NCBI GenBank assembly: GCA_023250205.1
Contig: JAHFBE010000004.1
Coordinates: 4,359-53,868, forward strand
DNA from: Candidatus Melainabacteria bacterium
GTDB taxonomy: Bacteria > Cyanobacteriota > Vampirovibrionia > 2-02-FULL-35-15
Direction of reading: 5' to 3'
Length of the DNA stretch: 49,510 nt
Part shown: in pieces, positions 10,597 through 38,102 of the stretch
Layout of the letters: the number at the start of each line of letters is the position of its first letter
Numbering within the stretch: the first letter of the stretch is position 1
Program-made: the position numbers and the translations under genes
Notes under the pieces: model-generated
The model's input: the letters and a program-made list of their open reading frames with translations, nothing else
Database searches by the model: none
What the model was told of the DNA's origin: nothing

Positions 10597-10620
10597 TATA
10601 ATGTAACCATGGGTTACATT
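10597..10620 (+). promoter_or_regulatory. TATAAT -10 box plus 19-bp dyad ATGTAACC-ATG-GGTTACAT centred on the mutL start codon
   Basis: TATAAT at 10597-10602; perfect inverted arms AATGTAACC (10600-10608) and GGTTACATT (10612-10620) flank the ATG. Confidence 0.6.
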
Positions 10621-12510
10621 AAACAACTTTCAGAAGATTTAATAAAAAAAATTGCAGCTGGTGAAGTTATTGAAAGACCAGCATCTGTAATTAAAGAGCT
10701 TGTAGAAAATTCTATTGATGCTGGTGCTACAAAAATTCAAGTAGAAATTGAGCGTGGTGGGAAATATATAAAAGTTTCTGATAATGGTATGGGTATTGAA
10801 CCTGACGATATTAATTTATTGTTTGCCAGACATGCCACGAGCAAGATCAGAAGCTTTGATGAATTATGGGATATACATACTCTGGGTTTTAGAGGTGAGG
10901 CTCTTTCCTCAATAAGTGCTGTAAGTAAGGTTACATGTAGATCAAAGCATGTAAACCAGGAGTATGGGTTTGAAATAAAGTTACAGGATGAAAAGATAAA
11001 TAAAAGAACATCAGCAATTTCTATTGGAACAGTATTTGAAATAGATGATCTCTTTTACAATGTTCCAGCCAGACAAAAATTCTTAAAGTCAGAATCTACT
11101 GAATATGGACATATATTTGATATATTAATTCCTTTGGCATTATCACATCCTAAGATCTCATTTACACTTACAAGTAATAAAAATGTTGCTTTAAAATCAA
11201 GTGGTTCAAATGATTTACAGCAAGTTATTGAGGAGCTTCTTGGAAGCGATTTAAAAAATAAACTTATCCCTGTCTCAGGAAAGAATGACTTTCTTGATTT
11301 TAAGGGATTTGTTAGTGCGCTTGAAGTCTATAGACCAGACAGAAAGTCTGTATTCATTTTTATAAATAACAGACCAGTTAAGTGTCAAATTATTTCTAAG
11401 GCTATTTTTAGTGCTTTTGAAGGATTATTGCCAAAAGGGAAATATCCCGTAGTTATTTTAAATCTAAATTTTAAATCTAAGTTTGTCGATATAAATGTTC
11501 ACCCTTCAAAAAAAGAAGTTAGATACACACAGCCAAATGATGTCTATAACTTGATCTTTCATTTAGTTCAAGATGCAATTACTAAATACTATAAAGAACA
11601 ATACAAAGAAAAATCGATTTATTCTCTTGACCCGGCATTGAAGAGTGAAAAGACAATAGATAATGGAGGTAAGACTTCATCTTCAACTAGTGCTGCTACA
11701 GCCTCATATTCTCAGGCTGCTTTTGAGCTGTATACTCCAATTGAAAGCTTTACAGATGAAAAGATTGAGGATATTGATATTAAGCCACTCGTGCAAATCC
11801 TTTCTTCATCAAATTTAAAATGCAAGATTATCTATTCTAATAAACCATTTGCAAATATGACAAAGATTGGAAATAAAACTATTTTTGAAGTTGGAATGAT
11901 TTATGAAGATGATTTGCAAGTTGTTTTTAGTGGGGAGATTGTTGGTGAGCCAAATTATCAAAAAGATTTTTTTAATTATTTATCAAATCTAAGCAGTATT
12001 ATTTTTAAAACATACTCAGAAAATCAAACGGTTCTTCAAAAGAAAATCGTAAATAAAGACTTAGAGCAAGAAGATGTAAAAGAACCCAGTCGTAAGAAAC
12101 CACCTGAAACACTTTTATACAAAGTGTGGGATAGAGACAACTGGACATGTGTATATTGTGGGAAGCAATTACTAGATCCAAAAATTGTTAAAAGGACTAT
12201 TCCTGAGACAGAAAATGCATTTAAGACTTATATTAATGAAAAAGGTGAAAGTATAACCAATCATGTTTTAAGAGAGTATATTGCTACCTATGATCACTAT
12301 TTACCGGTTAGCAAACTACCACAGTTTAACTTTGAAGAAGGAAATCTTTTTGCTTCCTGCATGGAGTGTAATAAAAAGAAATTAGACTCAATGGATATTC
12401 AAACCTGGAAGCCTGTTCGGAAAAATTCATGGAATCAGACTCTTGAAGTTGCAGGATTATGTTTTAGTGGACCGGATAAAGTAAAGTTAGAAACTAAAAG
12501 AACAAAATAG
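10609..12510 (+). CDS. mutL: DNA mismatch repair protein MutL, with C-terminal HNH nuclease domain
   Basis: GHKL motifs IAAGEVIERPASVIKELVENSIDAGA, DNGMGI, HATSKI, TLGFRGEALSSI; C-terminal CVYCG...YDHYLPVSKLPQFNFEEGNLFASCMECNKKK is an HNH motif. Confidence 0.9.
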   Translation: MGYIKQLSEDLIKKIAAGEVIERPASVIKELVENSIDAGATKIQVEIERGGKYIKVSDNGMGIEPDDINLLFARHATSKIRSFDELWDIHTLGFRGEALSSISAVSKVTCRSKHVNQEYGFEIKLQDEKINKRTSAISIGTVFEIDDLFYNVPARQKFLKSESTEYGHIFDILIPLALSHPKISFTLTSNKNVALKSSGSNDLQQVIEELLGSDLKNKLIPVSGKNDFLDFKGFVSALEVYRPDRKSVFIFINNRPVKCQIISKAIFSAFEGLLPKGKYPVVILNLNFKSKFVDINVHPSKKEVRYTQPNDVYNLIFHLVQDAITKYYKEQYKEKSIYSLDPALKSEKTIDNGGKTSSSTSAATASYSQAAFELYTPIESFTDEKIEDIDIKPLVQILSSSNLKCKIIYSNKPFANMTKIGNKTIFEVGMIYEDDLQVVFSGEIVGEPNYQKDFFNYLSNLSSIIFKTYSENQTVLQKKIVNKDLEQEDVKEPSRKKPPETLLYKVWDRDNWTCVYCGKQLLDPKIVKRTIPETENAFKTYINEKGESITNHVLREYIATYDHYLPVSKLPQFNFEEGNLFASCMECNKKKLDSMDIQTWKPVRKNSWNQTLEVAGLCFSGPDKVKLETKRTK

Positions 12511-24275: not shown

Positions 24276-27200
24276 TTACTGTCCCAATTTATCTATTAAT
24301 ATTGCACTAGAAGCTTCACCAGGATTATCAAAATTTAATTGAGAATTTGGAAGTACAAATTGTAGCGGAAAGGTTTCGTTGGTAATTAGGTTGGTATTGA
24401 AAGTGTTAACAACTAAATCAATAAAGGCTTCAGCTCGATCCGGCTCAAGTATTCCTTTGCTAGATGGTTTTCCAGCTTCAAAAGTCCCAGAAGCATAAAG
24501 TCTTAAAGCTTCTGCAATTTCTGATACTGAAACGTTTATATTTGGTTGTAATGATAGTCTTGTTAGATAGGCACCTGCTCCTGTTGGATTTAAAATAGTT
24601 TGAATATCACCTTCTGGGCTGTTAAGGATTGTTCTTGACTGTATTACTTTATCTACAGTTGTGAATCTCCCATACTTTCTAAAAACCCCACCCCAGAAAT
24701 TACCTATTGGTGAAGGAAGATTTAATAGAGTCTTTTGAGGAACATTTGCAGTCATGCTGAAAGTGTTTTGTTCATTGAATTGCAAATGGATATTATATTG
24801 TCCATTTTGTATACAGCCAGTAAATATTCCTGGTTGTAATGGTATATGTGAAAATGGTTCAATAACTTTTAAGTTTGTATTAAATAATTCATTTGTAGCT
24901 GAAATACTTACCATTGTATTTGTTCTCTTAATATCTAAATTATTTAAATCTTTCCCTATGAAAAATCTTCTATCTATTATACCTATTACATTTGTACATG
25001 TAGTATCTGTCGTATCTGATTTTAACTGTGCATGTGAAAGAGTGAAATAAAGAACTAGCCCAAGCAGTCCTATAGCTGCTATATCTGGAGCACTCAAGGT
25101 TCCAGCACCTATAGCTGCTGCATTTGCTAAGCCATTAAGTAGAACGGAATTTGAAAGCCCAGAAGCATTTACTTGTGGACTTATTGTTCCGATTGTTCTT
25201 AAAGTGTTTGCTGAATTAATAAGTGAAACTATATAAGGAAGGTTTGTCTTAGTTGAAGTTGAAATATATTCTAAGTAGTTTGTTGATGATATTCCACAAG
25301 TTAAAGTACTACCAGTAATCTGTGCTTTAAGATTTGATTCTCTATTATCATCTTTTAGTACACATCGTAATTGATCTATCGTGTAAAGAAGTTCATACGT
25401 GGCTTCCTGTGTCTCTAAATCATAGCCATTGTTATTGTCTTCACTTAAAAGTTTTAGATCTTTTAGAAGCCGTTTAAAATCTTTTAAAGATATTTTGTCA
25501 TTAGAAGAGAAACTTAATCCTTTAACACCAAGAATAGGATCATCCGATATTGTAGCCGTTCCATTAGTTACAAATGGAAGATTAATAGTATCAGTTTCAT
25601 TGCTTGATTCTGTAAAGAAAGAGCTTTCACCAATTTTTAGTTCACATACATCACTCTCTCCACCAGAAGTCAGAGTAAATATTACTTCTGTATAAATACT
25701 CCATGCTTGAGGAAGAGTGAATGAGATTATTCCACTTTGAGCCCAGTCAGTTTTATCTTTAAATTCTACGGGAAGTGGAATTGATTTATCGATAGTGCCA
25801 TCAGGTTTCTTTCCATTAATTGAGACATATGCTGACTTTGTAGATTTGAGAGCATAGTTAAAATCTATACTTTGACTGATACTTGCAGCATTTGGCTCCA
25901 GATTACAGAAAGTTATCTGCACAGAAGGGTCGAAAATTGGCACCGTTGATACTGTTTTGAATTGACCATTAAGAATATTGAAATTAAATTTATTTTTATT
26001 TAATTTATCCTGTACGAAGTTTAAGAAATCATCACTTCTGTTTAATGTAACTAGTGCCTCTGTAGTTTCAGGAGGTAGATTTTCTATTTTTTTAGTTTTT
26101 GATTGTTGTCCTTTTGGAATAAGAACTGATGTATTAAATTCCCCGAGATTTCCAAGAATCATGCCACTTTCATCTTTAGGCTCTACCACTAATTCCAGAG
26201 GGAATCTCTTTCCTTTTGGTCCGTAACTCGGAATATTGTTTTTAATTGTTAGATTTAAAACTTTTGTATTCGTTTTTGAATTTGTTTTTAAAGCACCTTT
26301 TACTACTGGCTTGTCTAAGAGAATTAATTCTTGTGGCTCAGCATATGACTCAGTCGGAAATGTAGAAACTGAAGGAGATAAAGTAGTAATTTCATTGTAG
26401 AGAAAAATCGGACCAATGGCACTTAGGTTTTCAAAAGCATCTTTAAAATTGTTTTCTGTACTGAGATTGAAGTTTAAATTATATTCAAAGCTTACAGTGT
26501 CTTCATTCAGACTACTTGCCATAATTCCTTTAATGACTGAATCATTGTTATTACTAGAGGTAACGATTCTTATAACGTCATCAGAACCAAACCTAATTCC
26601 ATACTTTGCAAGATTTTTAATTTTATCTGTGCTTAATGCCTGTAAGTCAACAGGAAGTTTAGCCTTATCTAAGATAGATTTAATTAAAGTTTTTGAAGAT
26701 TGGATAACAGTGTATTCTTCCGGCTGAATAATCTCTACAGCAACTTCAGGATTTGACTTAATATCTTTGAAATTGGCAAGGTATGAAGACCAGCTATCAG
26801 TTAGATTCCCTGAATCAGGAGAAAAACTTATAGGAAGAGTAAGTGTATATGAAGAAGAATCTTTTGTTAGTTCTTTAGGTGTGTAACTAAAAGAACAATT
26901 TGCTGCTAGTTCTCTTGTGGGGGATAAAATATTTGGCTGATAATTACAGCTAACAGTTACATTATCTCTTTCTCCTGTAGGAGTTTGAATATATGCCTGC
27001 CCTAAACGTGGAAGATGGTCTTGATCTTTTATCGGAATAGAATCGTATAAGTTTAAATTAAATGTAATATTATTTAATTTATTCCAAAGTAAGTTCTGAG
27101 GTTTTAAAGCAGATATTTTCGCATTATAATCCCTTGTAATGTTAATAATGAAATTGTTCGTGAGCTGAGTTGAATAGTTTTCTAAAGTTGTACCAAAGTG

Positions 27201-30200
27201 ACTTCTTGAAGTGTCTGTAGAAGTGATTGTATGGGAAAAATTATACTGCCCAATAGTCCAGTATAAAGTAGGATCTGGAGAGTTTGCATTAATATCAAAT
27301 AGTTCATTTGATAAAGTTCTATTTAGTATGAAAGATTCATAGACATCATAAGTGTTGCTACTACATCCATCTATATCGCCCAAGGTGCCAGAGTTACTAA
27401 TTGTATTTGAGTTAATTGGTGGATATGCACCTTTACCATTCAATAGGATTTCTTTAGTTCCAAATTGTAATTTGGATAAATCATTGACTTGTAACTCAAA
27501 AGGTGTCTCACTATCACTTACAGGCAAATCATCATCGTCACAAATCTTGGACTTAATAACTAATTCAAACGGTTCACCTTGTTTGAAGTTATGAGGTTGA
27601 CCATCATTATAAATAATTTGGACATCGTTATTTGATACATTGCTTAGTAATTTGATTTGTCTGTTGTCATTTATATTAATTTCATCACTTGTAATATTCC
27701 CAGCTCTGTCTTTTACATTGATTTCTACTTTAGATAGAGGGGAATCTAAAGTATTTGGATCAATAACAATGCTAAAAGCTTTTTTACCATTATCAAGCTC
27801 CTCAATGTCATCTTCATACAATTCCTTGAATGAATTATTTTCATTTATTCTGTAGGAAATTGAGTGAAATTGTTTATCTTCAATAGTTCCAGAAATTAAG
27901 AGCTTATTCTCAGGAAGAATTAAATCATTTTCATTAGGTGACTCTATATTTAGTAGAGGTGCTTCTGTATCCACTATAATCTCTCTTTCTTCACTCATAA
28001 AGAGTTCATCGGAGGAATCTACAGTTTCAAAGTAATAAGTGTTTATACCTTCACTTAATGAGATCGTTTGATTTTCACTAGTTTGATCTAGTTCTGTCGT
28101 AGTTTCATTTTCGTCTTCATCTCTTACCTTGATTTTTAAGCTGTTGTTTGGATCATCAGGATTTGCAAAGGATGTTAGTACCATAAAGGTAACAATTGAT
28201 TGGTTTGTAAATGATACATCTGAGAGATCGTCTAATAGATAGACTCCACTTGTACCAGTTCCGGCTACTGTGATTTCTGGAACATTAAAGACAAATTTTC
28301 TTATAGACTCTTCTATATAAACTGTTAGCTTTGGTGTATATGTTCCTGGCGTAGTGTAAGTGTGAGTAAAAGTTTTTGTGAGTAACTGATCAAGGGTAAT
28401 ATTTTCTAATTCAATATGAGATTCTTCGCTAGAGTTTACCCTGAGCGAAGCGAATGGGCTCGCAATGACAGAGTCACCCCAATCAAGCTCATATTTTGAA
28501 ACTGTTGCATTAACTGCTTTTGCGGTTTCATTATCGATCATTAGATTTACAGTCAATGGGACTATTCCTGAAGCTTGCTCTGGTCTTACATCTAAGAGAA
28601 CAAAGTTTGGTTCAGCATTAAATGTAATTGTTCCAGCACTTGCTTCCCAAGTTTCTTTTTGTCCACTTCTAAACACCGTAGAAACTGTAAGTTTTGGTGT
28701 AACCGATTTCCTGTCTGTGTATGGCGAACCATTAAAAGATTTATTATTGTCAAAGTAATAGTGCGTAGGATTTGGAGAGGTGCAGTCATCTGGAAGAGAA
28801 TTTCCCTTACAGCTTTCATCCCCAAAATCCCATTTATATGTTTGTGACTGAACATGACCACCAAGAACTTTTACATCAGATTTGAATCTTACGGGGATTC
28901 CTGCAGTCCCACTGGGGATTACTTCGTCGCTATTGCTCCCTGCAATGACATTTGGATCGTAAACTTTTTTATCAGAAGGATTCGTCGTGGCAAATACTAT
29001 TACTCTTTGTGAAGGTTTTGTCAGTGTAACTGATTCTGTAGAAGCCGTATCCGTCAATCCGGCTTTGTCTTTTACAGTAAGTGTTGCAAAGTAACTTCCC
29101 GGAGTAAAGAGACTTCCTGAATAGAAACTCTTCCCATCTTCTGACACTTTTCCATCAATTGGCAGTGATACTAACTGTGAATCCTGATTAAATCTTAGCT
29201 CAAAGAGTTTCCAGTTATTTAACTTTGAGTCTACAAAATCAAGAGCACTTGAAAATCTTTGGTTTGGATCGTAGCTATCTAAATCTACAAAGGTAGTAAA
29301 TAATGGTGGTGTAGTAGTAAATGTATCTCCTGAAACTTTTGCTTTAGCTATTGGATTGTAGTTTGGATATATAAAAACTGTTGGTCCATTATATGTTCCT
29401 ATCTTTGTTTGAACACCATTTTCATTCCAGAATAAGTCTACCTGTGGATTTGCGATTTGTGGAGTAGTTAAAGATTTGTTTGTGTTTTGATAAGTGAAAG
29501 TATAGTTATCATTTGCTATAGCTAAGCTTTCTCTGCCATCTCCAGATTTGAAATTATATCTTAGATTTGAAGAGTATTCCTGACCCGTAGAAATTTGTAC
29601 TTTGTATTTTATGGAGTGTCCATCCTGAATTACTTTATTTCCCACCTGGACAAATCCTACATTGTCGGAAGAGTTCTCTTCAATTCCAAAAATAGTTCCT
29701 ACTGCTGGTTTTGGTGTAAAAGTTAATCTGTGTGAAGCAGGAATTAAAGTATCTGAATATTCACTCAAGATACTTCTTGCTGCTAAATATTTCAATGCTT
29801 CAATACTTGTAAACTCTTCGCCAATGGATGAGTTTCTTTGAACAGTAGCAATTACTTTACAATTTCCATTTTTTGATTGTAGGTTTAATGGAATTGAATC
29901 TTTAAAGAATGTATCCCCATTTGAATCTTTTACTCCATTTATCGTAGTAGTAGAAAAGTTATTTGAGTTATTTATAGCAGTAAGAAGTTTTCCATCAGGA
30001 TCAAATACTGCAATATAAGCTGTATATGTAGCGTTTGGATTGTTTCCTTTTACTTTTAGTTCTACATCAAAACTGTTTCCGGGGAATGGTTGTATCGGTG
30101 TAATTTTAAAGGAACTATCTACCAGTTTGAAATCATCTGTGACTGCAAGAGAAAGAATTGAAGAATCTTTTCCATTTCCATGGAGTTGTACTAGTTTTGC

Positions 30201-33200
30201 TCCAGGACTTGAGAATTTGTCTGGTATATAAACTATAATTTGATTTTTATTTACGGAGTTTTTAGTAATTATCTGATTATCAATGGTTACATTTGTATTT
30301 TGATCAAAATTATCTCCGTTAATTGTAAGTATCCTCTTATTTCCTTCCAGAGAAATGTTATTAGGGCTTATTGAATAAAGTTTTGGACCACTGTTGTTTG
30401 TAAATATCACATCATTTACATAAAGTAAGTCATTTGGATTTCCATTAAAACTTATTTTTAGTTCATGTAATCCGCTTGAAAGAGTTCTTGTATCCAGATT
30501 TTCCCAGGATAGAGTTTGACTTGTTTGTACAAAGCTTCTGCTAATAAGGTTTCCATCAATCCAGAAATCCACATAGTTCCAATCTGGAGTTCCTGATTTG
30601 TAGTGAGATAAATTGAGTGAGGTTTTCACATCATAAGTATTATCCAGGCAAAATGGAGTACTTACTGAACCTGAACCCTGAATAGTTGCAGAAGGTGAAC
30701 TTAAGAAAGTATTGTTTCCACTAAGTACTGTAGTAGAGTCACTTCCCCAGTATGTTTGCGGCAATGTTTTCTTTAAGTTACAGACATTGCTTTGATTTGC
30801 CTTTGCTGTGTAGTAAGAAATGTTTGATTGGGAGCCGTCAGAATTTAAAACCGATATTGATTTTCCTCCTAAATACTGAACGAGGTTAGCTGGTATTCTT
30901 ATGTAGATTGTATTTGCATCATTTGCAAATGGTGTAAGTAAGTATCCATCAAAATAAACTCGAGATGTTTCTCTAAAATTATTTCCGTTAATTCTTAAGT
31001 CAAATGCTCCTCGACCAGCAGTTCCTTCTGTTGGGAAAATTGAAGAGATTTGTGGCTGAACTGTTTTTGTAAATGTAAAATATCCGGATGTCCAGGTTCC
31101 TGAAGCTAATTCATTTCCAGAATTATCTGTTGGTCTAAATTCTACTTTTATCCTTGGATTTGTAGTTGTGCTTGTAAATGATATTCCAGCGCCTGCCCAC
31201 CATTGTATTGAACCTGCAAGCTTTGAATCTACGTAAACATTTGTCTTTGTCCATTTTGCAAAAGGAGTATTGGCAAGAGAACCTTTCCAGCCAAGTTCAA
31301 TGTATCCATCTCTTTCAGTAATAACATCCAGTGTTAATGAATTTGAGCTGCTTGGGCTAATTGTTACCCATGGATTTACTACATAGTTAAAGTTTGAGAT
31401 TTCAAACCCAGCAGTTTGTAGCTTTGTGATTTTTTGAGCAGAATTTGAAGCAGCTACACGGGTATTTAAAGAAGCTGCTTCAGTTTCTCCGCTCTTTTGT
31501 GGTGATTTTGTTTCACCAACAAAACCTCTTACAAAAAATCCTTGATTAATCAAATCTTGAATCTCCACGTCATTGCGAGGAGCCTCTAAAGGAGGCGACG
31601 TGGCAATCTCATAAGTGTTAGAACGCTCATGAGATTGCTTCGTCAGTTTTTCAAACTTCCTCGCAATGACATATGGGGTAAGTTCTTTTTTCTCCCCATA
31701 TTCCCTATTCCCTAAATCCCCAAATCCTTTTTCTACAAAATCACTTACAGCACTAGGTAAAGCAATTCTTTCTACTACCACACCAAGTTCATCTACATTT
31801 AAGCCAACATTAAACGTTATAGCAATTTCTTCATTTGTTTCTTGTTCTGCTGTTGAGCTGTTCCTTGCAATTTGATTTCCATTTGTATCTGTAGCTGATA
31901 GTTTTAATGTATATAATCCAGGAGGCAGATCTGCAGGAATGCTAATACTTTCTTCTAAGTATTGTTCATTTGTTATTGAGTTATCTTTGTTCTTACTTTC
32001 TAAATCAATTACTTTTTGCGTAATTATTTTTTCATCCAGCCCATATAACGTATAGCCAAAATTACTTAATCCAATATTATCTCTGACAAAACAGGACAGT
32101 CTAACTGCTCCACCAGGATTAACGGTCTTAGGCTCAATTGTTATTGGTCCAATTTCTGGTTTTTTGTTATCAGATGAAATGAATATATCAGTGACTTCTT
32201 TTATCATTGACTCAATTGCAGATTCAATTTCTTCTTTTGTATAAGTGTCATTCTGAGGAGCATCAGCGACGAAGAATCTCTTAACGTTAGTAGATTCTTC
32301 GCTATCGCTCAGAATGACATTATTTGAACGAAACAATGCTTCGTTGCTAACGCTCCTTGCAGTGGCATATTTAGCAATCTTTATAGAAGAAGCCTGTGCA
32401 AAGCCTACATTATTTTCATTATCTACGACAACTAAAGTTGGAGTAAAAGTACCTTCACTGTTATATGTATGCTTTGGTGAAATCTCTGTAGACTTTTCAC
32501 CATCACCAAAGTCCCATGTAAGAATTTGTAGTCCACCACCTGCTTTTGGATCATAACTTTCAGAAGCATCAAAATTTATCTCTAGTCCCGGTTCGCCAAT
32601 ATTTTTATCGCTTAGTATTTTAGCTATTGCAACAGGTGCTTGATCTGGTGTAATAGTATAAGTCTCCCCATAGAATCTAGTTTTTGTTCCATCTGATTTT
32701 TCTATTTCTAATATTGGTGTGTATTGTCCTGCTTTTGTAAAAGTATATTCAAATTCTTCATTTGTAGAGATTAGCTCATTATTCACTTCATCGGAAAGAT
32801 CAATCAAATTTCCATTTACATCCCATGTTCTAGCACTCCATATCCATTTGTATTGAAGAGGTGTATTAGGATTTTGCGGATCAAAGCTTCCAACAGCAGA
32901 TAGCTTTATCATTGCCTGACCAACAATACCGCTATCATTTCCTTCTAGCTTTGTTATTTGTCCGACTGGTGTATTATTTGCTCCAACAATAACATTTCCA
33001 ATATTTATTTTTTTAAGTCTGTTGTCAGGTGTAAACGCTGTTAATGATGCTAGATATACTCCGGGATCCTGATAGGTGTGTTTAATTATTCCTTGAGTAC
33101 TATCTATTATTTGAGAATTACCATCTCCAAAATCCAGCTTAATACTTACAGCTTTACCGTCATAATCCTGTGAACTGCTTCCATCAAAGGTAACTTCAAA

Positions 33201-34892
33201 AGGAGCATTTCCTGTCGTTTGATCTAACTTAGCATTTGCAAGTGGTTGTGGCTTTAAAACTATTGTTGAAATTGTTTTTGAGCTTTCTCCCCTGCGAGTA
33301 TCACTAACTGTAAGTTTTACATTATAGGTTCCTGAATCTTTGTATTCATGTTTTGGACTTACTTCGTTACTTGTTGTATTGTCACCAAAGTCCCAAGTAT
33401 ACGTAAGCTCTTCATTATCAGGATCATAAGTTCCATTACTTACAAATTGAACTTCACTGGTGAAAAACCCTTCCTTATTTTGTTTTAAAATACTTTCTTT
33501 TGGAACTGCTGCGATTTGAGTTATTGGTAAGTTGTTTGGTGGGAGTAGTGTAATTTTTGTAGAAGTGATGGTTGTCTTTGCTCCAAGGATATCGTTAACT
33601 ATAAGCTTTGGCTGATATTTACCTGGAATTGTGTATGTGTGAGATGGGTTTTGTTCAGTACTGGTTTGTCCATCACCAAATTCCCAATAGTAGGATATTT
33701 CATCATTCTCTTTATCACTAACATTTGCAGTAAATGTAATACTAAGTGGAACATCTCCCTTTGTTTCATTTAATATAAAGACTCCTTCGGGAGCAAAGTT
33801 CTTTTCTCTTATTTCGATTTCTTTTGTAATAGCAGAAGTTTTTCCATAAGCATTTACTACATTTAAACGGGCTATGTATTTCCCCGGTTTTTTATAAGTA
33901 TGAGATATTACGGGATCTGTAGAAGTATTCTGATTCTCTTCAGTTGAATTTTCTAAATCCCCCAAGTTCCAAGAATAACTAAGCGCTTGTCCAAAATATT
34001 TTGCTAGTAAATCCTCAGTAGTTCTTCCATCAAAAGTAATAATCTGTGGTGCTACTCCAATGCTTGGTGTTGCATTGATTTTTGCAATTGGAATTGGATT
34101 TACTACCATTACATTAAAGCCTTTGCTTACCCCACCTAAAGGAGGTGGATTTGCTACAAAGATTTCAAAATTATTTTCTTTATTTAAATAGTTTGCTGGA
34201 ATAGTGGTAATCAACTTATTTGGTGAAACATATTTGGTTTGGATTTTCAGTGTTCCTATTGAAGCAACTGAATCTTGTACAAAATTGTCACCTTCTAAAC
34301 TTACATCAATAGATCCTCCGTTTTGTGATATTGGTAAGAGGTTGGGAGATATAAGTCCAAGAAGAGGTATTCCATTAAACACTTTATATGAAACATTATC
34401 GCTGGTAAGTTTAAGAGCTTCACCAGTAAATGAAGTAAGAGAATAGCTTGCAGGGAGTGAGGTAAGTCTAATTGCTTCAGCAGTTTGTGATATAGAGTAG
34501 CTTACAGGATTAGAGGACAGTTGAATAGCAGATGCAAGGTCTATAGTGCTATAGCTTACAGGATTGGAAGAAAGCTGAATAGCGGATGCAAGATTTGTAA
34601 TATTAAAGCTTACTGGTAAAGAACTTGATTGAATTGCTGTTGGGGATAAAGAAGTATCAAAGCTTACTGGTTTGGACTGAACTATTGAAAGGTTAAAGTC
34701 ATTTGTTGTTTGGGCTTTAGAAGGCAAGAATGAAAACGGATCAAGAAATAGAAATTTCAAACACAGGAAAAGAAGAAATACTTTTCTAAACATGAAACTA
34801 TATTTCTTAAAGTATCTTGTTAAGAAATAAGCTGAAACTCCGAAGCGCTTTCCTCTTGTTATTATTATTTCAAGGTAGAAATGTCTTTTCAT
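24276..34892 (-). CDS. Giant surface/secreted protein with PKD and IPT/TIG domains (3538 aa)
   Basis: Multiple PKD motifs (YYWEFGDGQTSTEQNPSHTYTIPGKYQPKLIV; YTWDFGDNTTSNEVSPKHEYKDSGTYNVKLTV; LTWDFGDGEKSTEISPKHTYNSEGTFTPTLVV), IPT/TIG-like segments (ISSIFPTEGTAGRGAFDLRINGNNF), N-terminal hydrophobic segment FRKVFLLFLCLKFLFL. Confidence 0.9.
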   Translation of the reverse strand: MKRHFYLEIIITRGKRFGVSAYFLTRYFKKYSFMFRKVFLLFLCLKFLFLDPFSFLPSKAQTTNDFNLSIVQSKPVSFDTSLSPTAIQSSSLPVSFNITNLASAIQLSSNPVSYSTIDLASAIQLSSNPVSYSISQTAEAIRLTSLPASYSLTSFTGEALKLTSDNVSYKVFNGIPLLGLISPNLLPISQNGGSIDVSLEGDNFVQDSVASIGTLKIQTKYVSPNKLITTIPANYLNKENNFEIFVANPPPLGGVSKGFNVMVVNPIPIAKINATPSIGVAPQIITFDGRTTEDLLAKYFGQALSYSWNLGDLENSTEENQNTSTDPVISHTYKKPGKYIARLNVVNAYGKTSAITKEIEIREKNFAPEGVFILNETKGDVPLSITFTANVSDKENDEISYYWEFGDGQTSTEQNPSHTYTIPGKYQPKLIVNDILGAKTTITSTKITLLPPNNLPITQIAAVPKESILKQNKEGFFTSEVQFVSNGTYDPDNEELTYTWDFGDNTTSNEVSPKHEYKDSGTYNVKLTVSDTRRGESSKTISTIVLKPQPLANAKLDQTTGNAPFEVTFDGSSSQDYDGKAVSIKLDFGDGNSQIIDSTQGIIKHTYQDPGVYLASLTAFTPDNRLKKINIGNVIVGANNTPVGQITKLEGNDSGIVGQAMIKLSAVGSFDPQNPNTPLQYKWIWSARTWDVNGNLIDLSDEVNNELISTNEEFEYTFTKAGQYTPILEIEKSDGTKTRFYGETYTITPDQAPVAIAKILSDKNIGEPGLEINFDASESYDPKAGGGLQILTWDFGDGEKSTEISPKHTYNSEGTFTPTLVVVDNENNVGFAQASSIKIAKYATARSVSNEALFRSNNVILSDSEESTNVKRFFVADAPQNDTYTKEEIESAIESMIKEVTDIFISSDNKKPEIGPITIEPKTVNPGGAVRLSCFVRDNIGLSNFGYTLYGLDEKIITQKVIDLESKNKDNSITNEQYLEESISIPADLPPGLYTLKLSATDTNGNQIARNSSTAEQETNEEIAITFNVGLNVDELGVVVERIALPSAVSDFVEKGFGDLGNREYGEKKELTPYVIARKFEKLTKQSHERSNTYEIATSPPLEAPRNDVEIQDLINQGFFVRGFVGETKSPQKSGETEAASLNTRVAASNSAQKITKLQTAGFEISNFNYVVNPWVTISPSSSNSLTLDVITERDGYIELGWKGSLANTPFAKWTKTNVYVDSKLAGSIQWWAGAGISFTSTTTNPRIKVEFRPTDNSGNELASGTWTSGYFTFTKTVQPQISSIFPTEGTAGRGAFDLRINGNNFRETSRVYFDGYLLTPFANDANTIYIRIPANLVQYLGGKSISVLNSDGSQSNISYYTAKANQSNVCNLKKTLPQTYWGSDSTTVLSGNNTFLSSPSATIQGSGSVSTPFCLDNTYDVKTSLNLSHYKSGTPDWNYVDFWIDGNLISRSFVQTSQTLSWENLDTRTLSSGLHELKISFNGNPNDLLYVNDVIFTNNSGPKLYSISPNNISLEGNKRILTINGDNFDQNTNVTIDNQIITKNSVNKNQIIVYIPDKFSSPGAKLVQLHGNGKDSSILSLAVTDDFKLVDSSFKITPIQPFPGNSFDVELKVKGNNPNATYTAYIAVFDPDGKLLTAINNSNNFSTTTINGVKDSNGDTFFKDSIPLNLQSKNGNCKVIATVQRNSSIGEEFTSIEALKYLAARSILSEYSDTLIPASHRLTFTPKPAVGTIFGIEENSSDNVGFVQVGNKVIQDGHSIKYKVQISTGQEYSSNLRYNFKSGDGRESLAIANDNYTFTYQNTNKSLTTPQIANPQVDLFWNENGVQTKIGTYNGPTVFIYPNYNPIAKAKVSGDTFTTTPPLFTTFVDLDSYDPNQRFSSALDFVDSKLNNWKLFELRFNQDSQLVSLPIDGKVSEDGKSFYSGSLFTPGSYFATLTVKDKAGLTDTASTESVTLTKPSQRVIVFATTNPSDKKVYDPNVIAGSNSDEVIPSGTAGIPVRFKSDVKVLGGHVQSQTYKWDFGDESCKGNSLPDDCTSPNPTHYYFDNNKSFNGSPYTDRKSVTPKLTVSTVFRSGQKETWEASAGTITFNAEPNFVLLDVRPEQASGIVPLTVNLMIDNETAKAVNATVSKYELDWGDSVIASPFASLRVNSSEESHIELENITLDQLLTKTFTHTYTTPGTYTPKLTVYIEESIRKFVFNVPEITVAGTGTSGVYLLDDLSDVSFTNQSIVTFMVLTSFANPDDPNNSLKIKVRDEDENETTTELDQTSENQTISLSEGINTYYFETVDSSDELFMSEEREIIVDTEAPLLNIESPNENDLILPENKLLISGTIEDKQFHSISYRINENNSFKELYEDDIEELDNGKKAFSIVIDPNTLDSPLSKVEINVKDRAGNITSDEININDNRQIKLLSNVSNNDVQIIYNDGQPHNFKQGEPFELVIKSKICDDDDLPVSDSETPFELQVNDLSKLQFGTKEILLNGKGAYPPINSNTISNSGTLGDIDGCSSNTYDVYESFILNRTLSNELFDINANSPDPTLYWTIGQYNFSHTITSTDTSRSHFGTTLENYSTQLTNNFIINITRDYNAKISALKPQNLLWNKLNNITFNLNLYDSIPIKDQDHLPRLGQAYIQTPTGERDNVTVSCNYQPNILSPTRELAANCSFSYTPKELTKDSSSYTLTLPISFSPDSGNLTDSWSSYLANFKDIKSNPEVAVEIIQPEEYTVIQSSKTLIKSILDKAKLPVDLQALSTDKIKNLAKYGIRFGSDDVIRIVTSSNNNDSVIKGIMASSLNEDTVSFEYNLNFNLSTENNFKDAFENLSAIGPIFLYNEITTLSPSVSTFPTESYAEPQELILLDKPVVKGALKTNSKTNTKVLNLTIKNNIPSYGPKGKRFPLELVVEPKDESGMILGNLGEFNTSVLIPKGQQSKTKKIENLPPETTEALVTLNRSDDFLNFVQDKLNKNKFNFNILNGQFKTVSTVPIFDPSVQITFCNLEPNAASISQSIDFNYALKSTKSAYVSINGKKPDGTIDKSIPLPVEFKDKTDWAQSGIISFTLPQAWSIYTEVIFTLTSGGESDVCELKIGESSFFTESSNETDTINLPFVTNGTATISDDPILGVKGLSFSSNDKISLKDFKRLLKDLKLLSEDNNNGYDLETQEATYELLYTIDQLRCVLKDDNRESNLKAQITGSTLTCGISSTNYLEYISTSTKTNLPYIVSLINSANTLRTIGTISPQVNASGLSNSVLLNGLANAAAIGAGTLSAPDIAAIGLLGLVLYFTLSHAQLKSDTTDTTCTNVIGIIDRRFFIGKDLNNLDIKRTNTMVSISATNELFNTNLKVIEPFSHIPLQPGIFTGCIQNGQYNIHLQFNEQNTFSMTANVPQKTLLNLPSPIGNFWGGVFRKYGRFTTVDKVIQSRTILNSPEGDIQTILNPTGAGAYLTRLSLQPNINVSVSEIAEALRLYASGTFEAGKPSSKGILEPDRAEAFIDLVVNTFNTNLITNETFPLQFVLPNSQLNFDNPGEASSAILIDKLGQ
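28421..28470. repeat. Partial REP-like element inside giant CDS
   Basis: gattcttcgctagagtttaccctgagcgaagcgaatgggctcgcaatgac; encodes VIASPFASLRVNSSEES. Confidence 0.7.
28890..28950. repeat. Partial REP-like element inside giant CDS
   Basis: ggggattacttcgtcgctattgctccctgcaatgac; encodes VIAGSNSDEVIPSGTAGIP. Confidence 0.6.
31568..31670. repeat. Complete REP-like palindromic element inside giant CDS
   Basis: CGTCATTGCGAGGAGCC...GACGTGGCAATCTCATAAG...CATGAGATTGCTTCGTC...CTCGCAATGAC; same structure as 489-587. Confidence 0.9.
32246..32319. repeat. Complete palindromic element (GTCATTCTGAG variant) inside giant CDS
   Basis: TGTCATTCTGAGGAGC..GACGAAGAATC...GATTCTTCGC..GCTCAGAATGACA; encodes VILSDSEESTNVKRFFVADAPQND. 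Confidence 0.9.
32338..32367. repeat. Degenerate REP-like half-element inside giant CDS
   Basis: gcttcgttgctaacgctccttgcagtggca; compare gcttcgtcgctaacgctcctcgcaatgac (reverse complement of 21980 element). Confidence 0.65.
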
Positions 34893-34950: not shown

Positions 34951-37191
34951 CTACAGGCTATTTTCTAAGCGTGTTCCCCAGATATAAATTTTCTTATTAT
35001 TGTTTTGACCAAGTCCACCAATAATAAGTGTTTTACTTTGATTATCCTGGTTTGTATCGCTAATTACAGAGAACTTTTGCCAGGTGGTGGTTACGCTTGC
35101 ATTTGTGTATGCAAAGTTAGTTGGATTATTGCTTGCAAATTGTCCTGCAGCACTACAGCTTGCATCACTGCATGTAGGTCCAATTCCAATCGGGATATTT
35201 GCAGTTCCTGAATCTGTTCTCATCCAGACTGTAAATTTACTTTTCCAGGACCATGGTGCAATATTTGGTAAGTAAATAGCATCATTTATGGGACCAAAAT
35301 TTATTGATGTTGCATCAGTTACGTTGTTGTCAGGATCTATAGCTGTACCACTTATTATTTGAGTGTTACTGTAATCGCTTGCATATGTGTGTTTCCATCC
35401 AGCATATCTAGAAAAATCAAATCTTGCCAAAATAGGAATTTTGTTGATATTTGTTGCTGCGCCTGAAGCACCAATTGAAGGAAGGTTTACTTCATTTCTT
35501 TTTATTGCACTTATTGGTGGTTCTGGAGGGATCTGATCTATTACTAGAGGAGCTACACCTGGTAAATATACTCCTGGAGCTGGAATAAATGGATCAGTTT
35601 CAGCTTTAATTACTTTGCTACTTCCTGCTTCTATGTTTATAGGAATGGAAGCTATTCCATTTACTAGTTTTGCAGAGTTGTTAGTATTAGTGGTGCTTCC
35701 ATCGGAATTCACACTTAGTAATTTTACAGTTGTTCCATCAGGAATATTTTCTCCATTTACTTCAACGGTTCTGTCCCCTGCATATGTGTAATCAAGTTTT
35801 AAATCAGGAAGAGTAGCATCGCCCTTTGGGTTAGCAATTAAATTCCCTGCGATTTTTGTAATTAAAAGATTTGCAACTTTTACAAGGTTACTTGACTTAT
35901 CAGCATGAAGAACCTGATTCGTTACAGATAGTATTCTGTTACTCTCTGCAATATAGAGATTATTATATTTGTCTACAAAGATTGCTATAGGTGATTGAAG
36001 AGAAATTGCTCTTGGAGATTTTGGTTGACCATAAATCAATGTTTCAGTTCTACCGCCTGCGGCAGTGGTAATTAATTTGTTGTCGTTTAATATTCTTCTT
36101 ATCCTATTTGTTGAATTATCAGCGAAGTAAACATCTCCATTTTTATCAGTAGTTAAAAAATTAGAGGCATAAACTCCTGCATATGCACTCTTAGCAAGTC
36201 CACCATCTCCAATATCAGTAGAGCTTCCGCTTCCATCCCCTACAAATGATTGCTCTATAAAGGTTCCATCATTATTTGTATTTGGAACCAGTTGCTTAAT
36301 AAAGAATGACCACTTTGAATTCTGGTAATCATTTATCCCTACAAATACTGTTCCACTGTGATCAAAAGTCAATCCTTTTATAGAGAAATTTGAGGATTCG
36401 TCAGGGTTGAGAAGATATTTTGGATTAAGACCTAATTGTTTAAAAGTATTACTTGCACCAAAAAGTTCACTAGTTGAAAAAAGAGAATCAATCCTAAATA
36501 TAGTTACACTGCTTGATAGTCCACCACTGAGATTAGGAAGACTTGATTTTCCATAAGCATAAATATATTTATCATGGTCTGTACTTAAATTAGTTAACGT
36601 AATTGCTGGAGTATAGTTACTCTGGTTACTTGAAGCAAATTGATCTTCAAATTTTAAAACTTCTTTTATAGTACCGTCTTTTAATGAAGCTTTAAGTAAT
36701 CTGGGATCGCTTGGAAGGATATTGTTGTAAGGTTCACCAGGTCTATTAAGTGTAAGGATATAGATGTTTCCATACTTATCAAAGGTAAAATCAATAAATT
36801 GACTTAAACTTGCATCTGCAAATTTTACAGTGGTAGAGTAATTTACAATATCATTACTTTTTGGTTTACCAATTACTTTATAGATCTTTCCATCAAGGAT
36901 GTTAATCCTGGCGATAACTCTGAGAACAGGATCAAAGAAATAGATATTTTCTTCCTGTGGGTCAAGCTGAATTGACTGAAACCCACCGATATAAGAATCC
37001 TCTTTTTTTAAACCACTTGAATAAATAGTGTAATAGTCTCCTCCACCCGCTTTTGCAAAGAGGGAAACTTGTGGTGATAAAACGGTTTGTGCATAAGCTT
37101 TTGGCACTAAGCAAAAACTTATGGACGAAATAATATAAGAGAATATTAGAACTAATGCGACCTTAGCATTTACTGTGTACTGTACTTTCAT
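34951..37191 (-). CDS. Secreted NHL/beta-propeller-like protein with C-terminal carbohydrate-binding-like domain
   Basis: Signal peptide (VALVLIFSYIISSISFCLVPKAYAQ), NHL-like blades (SPIAIFVDKYNNLYIAESNRILSVT; FLTTDKNGDVYFADNSTNRIRRI), C-terminal jelly-roll-like region. Confidence 0.75.
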   Translation of the reverse strand: MKVQYTVNAKVALVLIFSYIISSISFCLVPKAYAQTVLSPQVSLFAKAGGGDYYTIYSSGLKKEDSYIGGFQSIQLDPQEENIYFFDPVLRVIARINILDGKIYKVIGKPKSNDIVNYSTTVKFADASLSQFIDFTFDKYGNIYILTLNRPGEPYNNILPSDPRLLKASLKDGTIKEVLKFEDQFASSNQSNYTPAITLTNLSTDHDKYIYAYGKSSLPNLSGGLSSSVTIFRIDSLFSTSELFGASNTFKQLGLNPKYLLNPDESSNFSIKGLTFDHSGTVFVGINDYQNSKWSFFIKQLVPNTNNDGTFIEQSFVGDGSGSSTDIGDGGLAKSAYAGVYASNFLTTDKNGDVYFADNSTNRIRRILNDNKLITTAAGGRTETLIYGQPKSPRAISLQSPIAIFVDKYNNLYIAESNRILSVTNQVLHADKSSNLVKVANLLITKIAGNLIANPKGDATLPDLKLDYTYAGDRTVEVNGENIPDGTTVKLLSVNSDGSTTNTNNSAKLVNGIASIPINIEAGSSKVIKAETDPFIPAPGVYLPGVAPLVIDQIPPEPPISAIKRNEVNLPSIGASGAATNINKIPILARFDFSRYAGWKHTYASDYSNTQIISGTAIDPDNNVTDATSINFGPINDAIYLPNIAPWSWKSKFTVWMRTDSGTANIPIGIGPTCSDASCSAAGQFASNNPTNFAYTNASVTTTWQKFSVISDTNQDNQSKTLIIGGLGQNNNKKIYIWGTRLENSL

Positions 37192-37422: not shown

Positions 37423-37441
37423 ATATAACCGACGGTTACAT
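37423..37441. promoter_or_regulatory. Dyad ATATAACC-GAC-GGTTACAT upstream of RAYT
   Basis: Same 8-3-8 architecture as the dyads at 10601-10619 and 37499-37517. Confidence 0.5.
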
Positions 37442-37498
37442 GAATCTTTTTATTTTTTTAATTATTTAAAATATGTTTTTGGGAAAATATTTTGAATA

Positions 37499-37517
37499 AT
37501 GTAACCCACGGTTACAT
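37499..37517. promoter_or_regulatory. Dyad ATGTAACC-CAC-GGTTACAT upstream of RAYT
   Basis: Perfect 8-bp arms, 36 bp upstream of the preferred ATG. Confidence 0.55.
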
Positions 37518-37553
37518 GTGTGTGAAAACAAAAATTGTAAAATAAAAATTATT

Positions 37554-38102
37554 ATGAAATATAATCCTGAAATTCATCATCGCAGATCAATTCGATTGAA
37601 AAATTATGATTATTCACAAAATGGTTATTATTTTGTCACAATTTGTACGCAAAACAGGCAATGTTATTTTGTGCAAGAATGTGTCATAAAAATGATAGAA
37701 AAATGGTGGTATGAATTGCCAAATAAATTTTCAAATGTTCAAACAGATGAATCTATTGTAATGCCGGATCATTTCCATGGAATTATTGTGATTACCGATT
37801 CCGTAGGGGCAGACCCGTGTGTCTGCCCAAATATAAAATGGGACAAACACATTGGTTTGGAAACATCGGGCAAACACATTGGTTTGCCCCTACAATCAAT
37901 TGTTCAATGGTTTAAAACAATGACCACAAATGAATATATTAGAAACGTGAAAAATCTAAAATGGAAACCATTTGATAGAAAATTGTGGCAACGTAATTAT
38001 TATGAACATATTGTTCGGGATGAAAAAGAATTATATAGAATCAGGCAATATATTAAAAACAACCCAATAGAATATTTGCGTAAGAATAAAGATGATATGT
38101 GA
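37554..38102 (+). mobile_element. REP-associated tyrosine transposase (RAYT, Y1_Tnp/IS200-like)
   Basis: NGYYFVTICTQNRQCYF, HUH-like MPDHFHGIIVI, C-terminal RNYYEHIVRDEKELYRIRQYIKNNP. ATG at 37554 preferred to the track's GTG at 37518. Confidence 0.9.
37803..37893. repeat. Palindromic element within the RAYT CDS (GTAGGGGCA...TGCCCCTAC)
   Basis: Two hairpins (GGGCAGAC-ccgtgt-GTCTGCCC; GGGCAAA...TTTGCCC) inside terminal inverted repeats, plus a 27-bp-period direct repeat of CAAACACATTGGTTTG. Confidence 0.85.

Follow-up and report, generated by a model that had tools for sequence, protein, structure and literature searches.

A palindromic promoter motif as the predicted regulator site of a competence-type DNA-processing regulon in one Melainabacteria family

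Introduction

Why would a mismatch-repair gene and a transposase gene carry the same palindrome? In the window, the whole 49,510-nucleotide stretch of Candidatus Melainabacteria DNA analysed here, a 19-bp dyad had been noticed twice ahead of a RAYT-like transposase gene and once at mutL, and had been taken either as a site of shared control, perhaps by a TetR-type regulator, or as a recognition or insertion site of the transposase. All three dyads are present, with the two genes concerned, as follows.

10601-10619, no strand assigned: motif copy at mutL, ATGTAACCATGGGTTACAT
10609-12510, plus strand: mutL (TIGR00585, 2.3e-128)
37423-37441, no strand assigned: motif copy 1, ATATAACCGACGGTTACAT, read as ATATAACC-GAC-GGTTACAT
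37499-37517, plus strand: motif copy 2, ATGTAACCCACGGTTACAT, read as ATGTAACC-CAC-GGTTACAT; the RAYT-proximal copy, in an activator-type position
37554-38102, plus strand: RAYT-like HUH/Y1 transposase (Y1_Tnp, 2.6e-10; NF047646, 1.1e-18, below the curated cut-off)

The analysis was computational throughout and establishes the motif, its conservation, its targets and its spacing. We consider it likely, from these sequence comparisons, that the motif is the binding site of a putative regulator controlling a competence-type DNA-processing regulon in one Melainabacteria family.

Results and Discussion

The Motif Is Specific to One Family

The core of the dyad is the 17-mer TGTAACC-N3-GGTTACA (TGTAACCNNNGGTTACA), and the half-sites are oddly spaced in the sites listed (GTA-N9-TAC; TGTAA-N7-TTACA). 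Within the window, six strand-matches occur at up to three mismatches versus 0.74 expected, a number reached by none of 100 shuffles. The host genome (G000; 2.08 Mb, 86.5% complete) has 18 sites within one mismatch of the core and none for the reversed control pattern, so the dyad is not a sequence scattered at background frequency over random positions. These sites are almost all intergenic; the mutL copy lies over the start codon. Where sites are paired, their distances (18, 30, 50, 61 and 76 bp) follow no single helical period.

The survey covered 40 genomes, 11 from the host's family and 29 from other families of the same class. All 11 family genomes carry between 7 and 39 sites each, 226 in total versus 2 control matches, whereas the other 29 have 7 sites in total versus 10 control matches, which is background; the motif is therefore family-specific. 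Its density is family-wide, including in G006, a genome with no intact RAYT. A MutL scan of genome contigs named as relatives JAHFBF010000003 and MFRM01000026, both Candidatus Melainabacteria. A literature search returned nothing relevant for the motif string or for competence in Melainabacteria, and the genes described below would sketch such a regulon in this group for the first time.

Promoter Geometry Resembles That of a Class II Activator

In 41 of 67 oriented sites, picked for a start codon 25-41 nt downstream of the motif, a TANNNT −10 box starts 21 nt past the 17-mer, and in another 5 it starts 22 nt past it, with about 3.3 expected per position; 18 of the 67 have the extended −10 form TGNTANNNT. 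There is no −35 box, and in most of these promoters the site centre precedes the first base of the −10 box by about 30 bp. A −10 box at 21-22 nt puts the motif centre near −41; this location, together with the missing −35 box, is what one expects of a class II activator and not of a TetR operator. Judged by the spacing, the regulator is most probably a class II activator: a putative dimeric transcription regulator would bind the 19-bp dyad at most targets some 41 bp ahead of the transcription start, beside the often extended −10 box, and activate transcription. Other sites, whose distance to the start codon is 45-75 nt or greater, do not all share the 21-22 nt spacing. The gap between −10 box and start codon is mostly 6-10 nt, so close that the mRNAs are expected to be nearly leaderless; Shine-Dalgarno-like sequences precede 3/67 targets versus 115/480 other genes.

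This geometry bears directly on the TetR-type operator of the original prediction. The size of the palindrome is compatible with TetR operators, and a single TetR gene has been conserved across the 11 family genomes. That gene stands between fabI and an ABC exporter, however, and looks like a lipid regulator; the 11 loci hold no site at up to two mismatches, and three-mismatch matches fall only inside or past the gene. With the promoters arranged as for an activator, it is very improbable that the motif is a TetR-family operator. TetR was rejected as the regulator, there being no site in the family loci and no operator placed over the core promoter except at mutL.

A second candidate is suggested by the NtcA class II promoters of cyanobacteria, in which an inverted repeat at about 22 nt from TAN3T replaces the −35 box. 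In both systems the site lies about 22 nt ahead of TAN3T and no −35 box is present, and the GTA..TAC-N22-TAN3T layout is alike. Furthermore, each of the 11 family genomes has exactly one HTH_Crp_2 gene, downstream of thyX, and this CRP/FNR-type protein could bind the motif as an NtcA-like class II activator. We regard this as unlikely, although worth keeping in view. NtcA recognises GTA-N8-TAC, whereas the half-sites here are one base wider (GTA-N9-TAC) with a conserved ACC/GGT core; CRP-family sites are evenly spaced; the recognition helix, RETVNR, retains the CRP-like RE...R pattern, for which TGTGA would be the expected target; and the gene has no autoregulatory site. The gene content also differs from that of NtcA-type promoters. 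None of the LexA gene, the single TetR gene and the single CRP-family gene has the motif.

The Targets Resemble a Late-Competence Gene Set

Neighbouring genes were inspected at the sites of six genomes (G000, G001, G002, G003, G006 and G009). Targets recurring across several genera are comM, dprA, a divergent pair of recJ and a type II secretion F/pilC-like gene, an ssb cluster that also encodes a small secreted protein, and mutL; comM (YifB) often has two sites about 50 bp apart. Genes of the ORF6N, RhuM-Fic and BRO-N types recur among the targets as well, and yraN is a target in G006, while in G001 the gene order is RAYT-yraN-integrase. A further target family consists of multicopy two-helix membrane proteins of about 70 aa, usually followed by a membrane protein of about 40 aa; Pfam gives no good match for the former, and in G000 the eight best matches to the family all have a site. 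Examples are found at L029:4875-5202 and L026:2653-3009, and these and their paralogues nearly always have the motif ahead. The regulon, as we picture it, would thus comprise a late-transformation set (dprA, comM, ssb, recJ, pilC-like) together with RAYTs, ORF6N/RhuM/BRO-type genes and small membrane proteins.

The competence set of Haemophilus also includes a toxin-antitoxin pair. BrnT-like toxin genes with the motif occur here in three genera (L118, L157 and L174), and resemble the toxin-antitoxin genes of other competence regulons. The CRP-S/competence genes listed for Haemophilus include dprA, comM, ssb and pilC (PMC5809987). The present regulon is like the CRP-S/Sxy (TfoX) regulon of Pasteurellaceae (PMC5809987) in that a single palindromic promoter element serves dprA, comM, ssb and pilus genes; such sharing is a feature of late com regulons and is seen here in several genera. 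The two differ in the element, which here is another, odd-spaced motif whereas the CRP-S site is 22 bp and even, and in content, since recJ, mutL and RAYT are included here and comEC is left out. Indeed, comEC is present in every genome tested, with no motif within about 1.5 kb. The absence of a site at comEC suggests a regulon of DNA processing rather than of the uptake channel.

The gene content thus matches late-competence regulons, and competence appears to be the best-supported condition. Against it, the regulon does not clearly take in the uptake machine, comEC having no nearby site, and many targets, such as the small membrane proteins and the ORF6N genes, have no established role in competence.

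The main alternative is a DNA-stress regulon, a possibility that arises because dprA, comM, recJ, ssb and mutL have general functions in recombination and repair as well. In its SOS-like form, the regulon would be repressed by the family's LexA-like protein or by another repressor, with mutL, recJ, ssb and the DinD-like ORF6N/RhuM/BRO genes as damage-response targets. The mixture of repair genes and phage-antirepressor-like genes would fit such a regulon, as would the operator-like geometry at mutL, and a LexA_DNA_bind protein is encoded in 10/11 family genomes, the one without it being incomplete. Yet the lexA promoters of the family have no motif within three mismatches, and 7/10 carry instead a box of the TTTGTACRTTTGTACAA or GTACNNNTGTAC type, close to the cyanobacterial LexA box (PMC3091678). 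Furthermore, inspection of the site-linked genes recognised neither recA, uvrA nor lexA, nor any other uvr or error-prone polymerase gene, some of the small genes there being without names, and the constant distance to the −10 box suits an activator. An SOS-like regulon is therefore improbable. LexA itself was rejected as the regulator because its promoters lack the motif and have their own, different box. The cyanobacterial LexA/SOS regulon, whose predicted targets in Nostoc include ssb (PMC3091678), is alike in that a palindromic element is common to DNA-repair genes, and unlike in that the LexA-type box is here a separate element in the lexA promoters. The TTTGTACRTTTGTACAA-like boxes lie ahead of lexA in L101-L103, L105, L107, L108 and L110, in an uncultured, non-photosynthetic lineage that is sister to cyanobacteria.

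A gene for a FliA-like (group 3) sigma factor stands directly upstream of dprA in 6/6 family genomes examined, and its product could be a partner of the regulator.

L028:2136-2993: FliA-like sigma factor gene; also in L075, L085, L135, L147 and L169

Every Intact RAYT Examined Has the Motif

The RAYT census used a profile built from six RAYT-like proteins and found intact copies in G000, G001, G002, G003 and G009. The RAYT-like proteins score above the Pfam cut-off for Y1_Tnp, and against NF047646 they reach E values of 1e-16 to 4e-20 and 61-72 bits, where the curated cut-off is 80. The motif lies just upstream of 11/11 intact RAYTs in the five genomes, ten at up to one mismatch and one (L181) at two; it is absent from RAYT fragments and from an ordinary IS200 TnpA (L111). 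Three of the 11 were flagged for one stop within the matched stretch or its read-through end, and were counted as intact because the annotated ORFs span the whole domain. In the window, the longest RAYT ORF opens at GTG 37518. The start is probably ATG 37554, 37 nt past the core of copy 2, since both the regulon spacing and the start of the G001 orthologue fit it.

37538-37543, plus strand: predicted −10 box TAAAAT, its start 21 nt downstream of the copy 2 core (17-mer)

Could the dyads then be recognition or insertion sites of the RAYTs, as first suggested, or mobile repeats of the REP kind? Each intact RAYT has a dyad close by, and the RAYT gene of the window contains a REP-like GTAG...CTAC repeat. 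That repeat is unrelated in sequence to the dyad, however, and most dyads lie far from RAYTs, at the conserved promoters of comM, dprA, recJ, ssb and membrane-protein genes, at a constant distance from the −10 box; their density is maintained even in G006. We therefore give this explanation hardly any credence. The repeat itself, an inverted one at 37803-37893, lies in frame within the gene, and the G001 orthologue has a differing version of it (L066:10171).

With the dyad read as a regulator site, its sharing by the RAYTs takes on another meaning. RAYTs are single-strand transposases that have been proposed as domesticated processors of single-stranded DNA (PMC6006769), a proposal with which promoter sharing between RAYT and dprA, comM, recJ and ssb fits. 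In being Y1/HUH single-strand transposases with such a proposed role, the present proteins are like the known RAYT/TnpAREP and REP systems (PMC2817692, PMC6006769); unlike those, they are joined through their promoters to a DNA-uptake/recombination regulon, a link for which the literature search found no earlier report. These observations hint that RAYTs work alongside DNA uptake, where they may act on incoming single-stranded DNA. On a more tentative reading, taken up below with mutL, RAYTs could be functional components of natural transformation or its specialised passengers. For the cellular role of RAYTs, the promoters that place them in the regulon in every intact case examined offer a testable hypothesis.

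At mutL the Dyad Covers the Start Codon

The dyad noticed at mutL is indeed there, but not upstream of the gene: ATG 10609-10611 is the N3 core of the dyad, so that the start codon lies within it. The gene preceding mutL is clpB. In five genomes (G000, G001, G002, G003 and G009) the mutL start codon, ATG or GTG, coincides with the N3 core, and in all of these except G000 a second copy, sometimes weaker, lies 18-30 bp upstream. Because the dyad covers the start codon, the same protein would be expected to block expression here and could thereby shut mutL off; the position is repressor-like, the reverse of the one seen at dprA and comM. The shared control of mutL and the transposase that had been proposed gains support, one family-specific motif being present at mutL in the five genomes and at all the intact RAYTs.

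This suggests that mismatch repair and DNA processing are controlled in coordination. It is possible, and we put it forward tentatively, that the putative regulator activates single-stranded DNA handling (dprA, comM, ssb and recJ) and the RAYTs while shutting mutL off; if so, mismatch repair would be lowered during the recombination of foreign DNA.

In the MutL protein (10609-12510) the N-terminal half is normal. The search turned up no MutL C-terminal domain, and the C terminus looks HNH-like (CVYC...DHYLP...CMECNKKK), with a match to Pfam HNH at E = 0.0074, below the cut-off.

The Site Pair Lies between Two Divergent Genes

On the far side of copy 1 from the RAYT gene is a divergent gene that is a conserved neighbour of this copy.

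34951-37191, minus strand: gene for a 746-aa secreted protein, divergent from RAYT

Copy 1 is kept with this gene in four genomes, also where the RAYT is absent: in G001, G002 and G003 it lies about 160-230 nt from the start of the 746-aa gene, and in G002 and G003 this upstream site occurs without a RAYT there. Copy 2 has RAYT-type spacing, which the TAAAAT box and ATG 37554 fit exactly. Since copy 1 is conserved without the RAYT and copy 2 is RAYT-spaced, the pair most probably acts on both of the divergent genes, as far as the arrangement can tell. Copy 2 would drive the RAYT, and copy 1 would be an older site that belongs to the secreted-protein gene. Adjoining the 746-aa protein is one of 3538 aa, encoded at 24276-34892 and rich in PKD and TIG repeats; it is probably a large surface protein.
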